Shown piece after piece: positions 17,405 to 59,817 of a stretch of 64,000 nucleotides of DNA; within the stretch, counting starts at the first letter, position 1, and every line of letters starts with the position of its first letter. The stretch lies in NCBI GenBank assembly GCA_963681505.1, contig OY811974.1:3831271-3895270 (forward strand). Reading direction: 5' to 3'. The DNA comes from Eunapius fragilis (lineage: Eukaryota > Porifera > Demospongiae > Spongillida > Spongillidae). Both the position numbers and the translations under genes were made by a program. A model generated the notes under the pieces. That model saw only the letters and a program-made list of their open reading frames with translations. It was not told the DNA's origin and did not search any database.

Positions 17405-17527
17405 CATTGCAGGCATATCCTAATAGAGTATATGCCTCTTCACAACTGCACACGAATGATCCTTGAGTGTTGTCACATATCTGAGCACATGGACCCAATC
17501 CTCCATTTGGAGCACATTCATCAATGT
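17405..17527 (-). CDS. cbEGF exon 12 (3'-most seen)
   Basis: Reads [18 protein letters not shown].. then [15 protein letters not shown] and ..LLGYACNG. The splice donor GTGAG shows the coding sequence continues further 3', but no later exon could be recognised down to 12.4 kb. Confidence 0.9.

Positions 17528-59817: not shown

Follow-up and report, generated by a model that had tools for sequence, protein, structure and literature searches.

A tandem array of cbEGF exons on chromosome 4

The window, a 64-kb stretch of DNA, maps to chromosome 4 of Eunapius fragilis (C4:3831271-3895270). Scanning its minus strand for phase-1 open segments bounded by AG and GT returned exactly twelve exons for calcium-binding EGF (cbEGF) modules between positions 17405 and 59807. 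Read in the direction of the gene, these run from e08 (59685..59807), the 5′-most in the window, through e09 (47692..47814), e10 (42148..42270), e11 (36700..36822), e12 (36209..36331), e13 (27822..27944), e14 (27396..27518), e15 (24518..24640), e16 (21105..21227), e17 (18301..18423) and e18 (17844..17966) to e19 (17405..17527), the last EGF exon found. Each of the twelve is 123 bp long, of phase 1-1, flanked by AG and GT, open throughout, and encodes six cysteines in EGF spacing (C-x8-C-x3-C-x8-C-x-C-x10-C). A gap-free alignment of the twelve translations spans 40 columns, of which 14 are invariant, and has a mean column identity of 83%.

We counted open 123-bp frames in phase 1 bounded by AG and GT and asked how many hold the full cysteine pattern, itself derived from these exons. 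The window has 12 such cases among 38 frames on its minus strand and none among 36 on its plus strand; in the next 100 kb downstream (pieces L009-L018), the two strands together gave none among 113. Four of the window's twelve exons were scanned with the Pfam EGF_CA model, and all four scored between 29.0 and 32.1 bits, above the curated cut-off of 27 bits. The exons were typed as calcium-binding by two signatures that we take to define this EGF subtype. The six cysteines together with the Asp/Asn hydroxylation pattern C-x-[DN]-x4-[FY]-x-C-x-C, located between the third and fifth cysteine, are present in all 19 exons of the array described below, and the N-terminal calcium motif D-x-[DN]-E-C in 18 of them, e01 starting with E-N-N-E-C instead.

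The array does not end at the window edge. The search covered a genome of 218,937,333 bases in 24 contigs; in its available excerpt, the published description of assembly odEunFrag1.1 gives 23 chromosomes plus the mitochondrion and 218.91 Mb (PMC12616128). Examination of 200 kb of flanking DNA in 20 pieces, each with no N (264 kb together with the array), revealed seven more intact exons upstream of the window (C4:3902546-3926974). The whole array thus spans 78 kb and comprises 19 intact exons, of which 18 measure 123 bp and one (e04) 126 bp, plus one truncated exon. The latter lies just upstream of e01 (C4:3927040-3927138), retains its acceptor and first codons, and scores 12.0 bits in the EGF profile. 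No stop interrupts the reading frame between this remnant and e01 (C4:3926852-3927103), so that a 252-bp first exon of phase 1-1 carrying an extra linker is possible. Whereas the exons score 70-95 bits in the same profile, the 117 kb beyond position 17405 on the downstream side yielded no more than partial pieces, none above 9.4 bits, and the rest of the 264 kb, the truncated exon aside, yielded weak pieces not exceeding 14.2 bits.

These results bear on an earlier note on this DNA, which had placed twelve exactly equal exons between 17405 and 59817. The number, length, phase and cysteine spacing of the exons were borne out, as was the start at 17405; the end lies at 59807 rather than 59817 and is not that of the array, and the strict length of 123 bp holds for all twelve window exons but for 18 of 19 in the array as a whole. 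The note's description of the exons as an in-frame modular set stands as well. As read from the DNA, one domain per exon, phase 1 on both sides and a length divisible by three characterize all twelve window exons and all 19 exons of the array, which makes each a class 1-1 symmetric module, and any subset of such modules can be removed or added in frame.

The 18 introns fall into two length classes, seven of 303-391 bp and eleven of 1.2-11.9 kb. About 5 kb of the longest, the 11.9-kb intron between e08 and e09, is taken up by an LTR retrotransposon on the plus strand, opposite to the exons (51037..56026), with fragments of reverse transcriptase, RNase H and integrase and two LTR pieces that are 92% and 96% alike. 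When the seven short introns were aligned, their mean identity was 0.462, as compared to 0.399 after shuffling (shuffled maximum 0.471); being barely above shuffled sequence, they retain little trace of a common intron. Elsewhere in the window, pol fragments of a retroelement (integrase and RNase H, in two overlapping frames) occupy 15065-16265 on the minus strand, 3′ of e19, and long AG and GT dinucleotide repeats occur at 60732-60933 and 43330-43430 (101 and 50.5 copies).

The split into short and long introns would be expected if two or more separate genes stood in a row, with some of the long introns being in fact intergenic gaps. We consider this improbable: the exons share a single strand, their phases are compatible throughout, they form nearly one clade (see below), no head or tail of the gene family was detected between groups of exons, and at least one of the long gaps consists in part of a retrotransposon.

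Age of the array and selection on its exons

Pairwise dN/dS, tree, flank and site-order analyses were carried out on the 18 exons of 123 bp, with e04 (126 bp) left out. Over the 153 pairs, median dN was 0.17, median dS 0.48 and median dN/dS 0.32. The closest pair, e09 and e19, is about 90% identical with a dS of 0.21, and no pair exceeds 0.903 identity. Adjacency does not raise similarity (identity 0.802 between neighbouring exons versus 0.804 between other pairs), and similarity is independent of distance along the array (Mantel r 0.003, p 0.50). The array is old, and recent duplication within it is rejected on dS, position and adjacency; the continuing exon duplication that the earlier note had proposed finds no support in this array.

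That note had also invoked gene conversion, and here the outcome is divided. Depending on the bin, identity at fourfold sites is 0.70-0.92, whereas the intron flanks reach 0.62-0.66 and shuffled flanks 0.59-0.65; in 98 of 153 pairs, flank identity fell under the lowest simulated value. The better conservation of fourfold sites is a hint of exon-limited gene conversion in the array's past, and faster decay of the introns explains it equally well. Tests directed at the exons themselves were negative in the window array: a site-order (PHI-type) test for mosaic exons gave p values of 0.36-0.84 over five settings, and the two halves of the exons were uncorrelated (r −0.26, p 0.92), which may reflect a star-like history only.

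It could still be argued that duplication or homogenisation is ongoing, in which case repeat number would vary between individuals. The symmetry of the exons would permit this, their fourfold sites are better conserved than their flanks, and a paralogous array on contig 8 shows strong exon-limited homogenisation (next section). We hold it to be very unlikely for the window array, given a closest dS of 0.21, an identity that never exceeds 0.903, the absence of any effect of position and the flat site-order test; moreover, the near-identical exons in the exon tree belong to paralogs.

Purifying selection has acted on the window array. All 19 exons retain an open frame and both splice sites, all 114 cysteines are kept, and there are no stops. 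We then considered the five sister pairs of the tree (10 of the 19 exons; supports 100, 84, 81, 75 and 72), which record change since the last split only. These pairs carry 54.5 non-synonymous and 40.5 synonymous changes, i.e. a dN/dS of 0.37-0.49 depending on the transition bias, with no stop where 3.9-5.9 would be expected without selection and no cysteine loss where 11.1-12.4 would be. Constraint in the sister pairs argues that the exons were translated well after the array had formed.

Paralogous arrays and homogenisation of the contig-8 exons

Among 150 scored of 1578 candidates, the closest relatives of the modules outside the window array are found in arrays on contig 8 and contig 4 of the same genome. 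The best paralog lies on the plus strand of contig 8 (C8:9.679-9.696 Mb; C8:9679791-9695428) and packs about 44 EGF exons into 16 kb (the profile gave 46 rows, of which two are clearly false; 44 in a separate tally). Ahead of its EGF exons lie a signal-peptide exon and two cysteine-rich head exons; behind them come a C-terminal domain and a membrane anchor, with signal peptide and anchor assigned by eye. It looks like a complete gene. From the paralogs we define a sponge family with the order head, cbEGF(n), tail and membrane anchor. Genome-wide, the C-terminal domain has 24 matches at E ≤10 (21 at E ≤0.001) and the second head exon 10 matches at E ≤10 (8 at E ≤0.001). Neither the head nor the tail of this paralog matched a Pfam family. 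An EMILIN-type EMI domain had been considered for the head and was rejected, as the head peptide returned no Pfam family; the EMI model PF07546 had no match in the genome, in a search run without a positive control. Repeats of the MRTHTSY/MRTHISY type extend over 6 kb on the upstream side of this paralog (L029:215-6226); one frame is open there over 2003 codons, and the run is probably a satellite.

In three paralogous arrays, the modal EGF exon likewise measures 123 bp, with 35 of 44, 9 of 13 (ends undefined in four of the 13) and 5 of 7 exons of this length, although these counts are biased towards 123 because paralog exon ends were set at the nearest fitting AG or GT and the profile was built on 123-bp exons. 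A modal length common to paralogous arrays argues that the equal length of the window exons was inherited from the module, with no need for recent duplication. We built a tree of 60 exons, namely 18 from the window array and 42 from the three paralogous arrays, the latter being those 123-bp exons with an HMM score above 40 among 64 paralog hits tallied. In this tree, the window-array exons are kin to those of the paralogs and form nearly one clade; one contig-8 exon falls inside it with low support and another beside it (clade support 85). The near-identical exons in the tree are those of the paralogs rather than of the window array, and there is no sign of recent exchange between the window array and the three paralogous arrays. 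This near-single clade, together with similarity that is free of position and a closest dS of 0.21, points to one or few founder exons and to old duplications.

The contig-8 array shows strong recent homogenisation that is limited to the exons. Twelve of its exons make 50 pairs, not independent of one another, that are at least 95% identical, and fourfold sites in these pairs are 97.4% identical (848/871). Their intron flanks have an identity of only 0.607, versus 0.574 for shuffled sequence and 0.928 expected from the fourfold sites. With an assumed indel rate, all 50 pairs fell under the lowest of five simulated flank values. By a cruder measure, both flanks were at background in 42 of the 50 pairs, and a flank exceeded 99% of the null in the other 8. 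Ungapped identity drops from 0.94-0.98 within the exon to 0.27-0.34 at 11-20 bases beyond its edges. The exception is a trio of exons with a common downstream flank, of which one pair reaches 0.82 over both flanks. The two halves of the contig-8 exons correlate (r 0.66, p 0.0005), and the site-order test was low in one of five settings (w=10, p 0.001; others 0.07-0.54). The simplest reading is that this homogenisation is probably exon-limited gene conversion. Among the titles and abstract openings listed by literature searches on EGF gene conversion, sponge EGF families and homogenisation of repeat exons, none matched this finding.

A bolder scheme would extend such conversion to the whole family: interchangeable EGF exons would be kept alike while their introns drift, the repertoire of long cbEGF receptors would differ between individuals, and in that system the window array would have the part of an ancient and now quiet member that may once have served as a donor bank. 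We regard this scheme as highly doubtful.

Ends of the gene and likeness to known cbEGF genes

We searched the surroundings of the window array for the family head and tail and found neither, over 68 kb on the upstream side and 117 kb on the downstream side. None of the 24 genomic matches of the C-terminal domain at E ≤10 lies within C4:3.73-3.995 Mb, and in tblastn searches of the 264 kb around the array the tail gave no match at E ≤5 and the head only chance-like pieces (E ≥0.7). A scan of the same 264 kb for the CC-x-G motif recovered no head or tail, and a scan for hydrophobic tails, covering the first 17.4 kb of the window and the downstream pieces L013-L018, recovered no tail. For a signal peptide with a cysteine-rich head near the array, there was no convincing match; the head query is short and of low sensitivity, finding only 10 places genome-wide, none of them near the array, versus 24 for the tail.

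Pfam was also run on 87 of 118 listed minus-strand ORFs flanking the array (at least 50-55 aa; window positions 1-17404 and pieces L018 and L022 only), a set that leaves out retroelement-like, repeat and some overlapping ORFs and that shorter exons would escape. Seven families matched at E ≤0.05, and below 0.01 only a Death domain did (E 1.4e-5). The ORF in question lies upstream of the array on the minus strand (L022:6143-6884); a further ORF, upstream of and overlapping it, contains DVEENPGP near its end, which we take to be a 2A-like motif. With no head or tail found in the 264 kb and, among the 87 ORFs, no Pfam domain other than the Death domain below E 0.01, the array is not established as a complete gene.

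Might the array, then, be an orphan that has lost its head and tail, an untranslated fragment of a recently dead receptor gene kept intact by inertia? The failed search for family ends would fit, as would the truncated exon directly upstream of e01 and introns of up to 11.9 kb, one with a retrotransposon. However, the 19 exons show no stop and no loss of a cysteine, splice-site pairs are intact in 19 of 19, dN/dS in five sister pairs is 0.37-0.49, and plain divergence of head and tail may account for the failed search. We therefore consider an orphan array unlikely, though the most serious of the alternatives.

In our judgement, the twelve exons are likely the greater part of one old, conserved tandem array of 19 intact class 1-1 cbEGF exons on the minus strand of chromosome 4, kin to long sponge cbEGF proteins. 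The likelihoods given here and above refer to explanations that are not mutually exclusive. Tandem cbEGF modules are rod-like and function in a calcium-dependent manner. Each exon would code for one cbEGF module, and the exons, if joined in order in one transcript as we infer, would yield a stiff, calcium-dependent rod of an extracellular protein. The product is probably secreted or membrane-bound, a cell-surface or matrix protein. The array probably grew from one or few founder exons through old duplications. Its exon spacing was stretched later, a retrotransposon having lengthened one intron or more, and selection has held the modules in a foldable state.

The main interest of these data lies in the exon-limited homogenisation on contig 8 and in the missing ends of the window array. 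Both arrays use the same type of cbEGF module and a modal 123-bp exon of phase 1-1. Unlike the window array, the contig-8 paralog is compact (16 kb), has a head and a membrane anchor, and contains several exons that are nearly identical although their introns are unrelated. This combination offers a natural setting in which to ask how exons become homogenised independently of introns and whether repeat number differs between individuals.

Extracellular proteins of animals are typically assembled from symmetric class 1-1 modules (Patthy), and EGF modules belong to this class. To this known kind, a classic animal design, the window array adds another case; its exons follow the same plan as exon-shuffled class 1-1 modules, with one module type repeated many times. 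In the available excerpt of one source, such modules are described, with no mention of EGF, as one domain per exon with phase 1 introns and a length of 3n, and as well suited to exon skipping that preserves the frame (PMC8001218). A parallel comes from fibrillin-1 (FBN1), for which the excerpted text of a second source lists 43 calcium-binding among 47 EGF-like domains, most exons being removable in frame (PMC8037683). According to the same excerpt, in-frame skipping of its exon 52 can be induced, and a patient cell line skips exon 52 naturally in frame, so that being in frame is not necessarily harmless (PMC8037683). The window array resembles FBN1, as portrayed there, in its long run of cbEGF modules. 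It differs in that fibrillin also contains TB domains, seven in number, and two hybrid domains (PMC8037683, same excerpt), whereas the TB (8-Cys) domain, which lies between cbEGF runs in the fibrillin/LTBP group, was found neither in the sponge genome, in a search run without a positive control, nor in the 87 flanking ORFs. In its one-exon-one-module EGF arrays with phase 1 introns, the sponge layout matches that of vertebrate matrix genes and provides a worked example of it.
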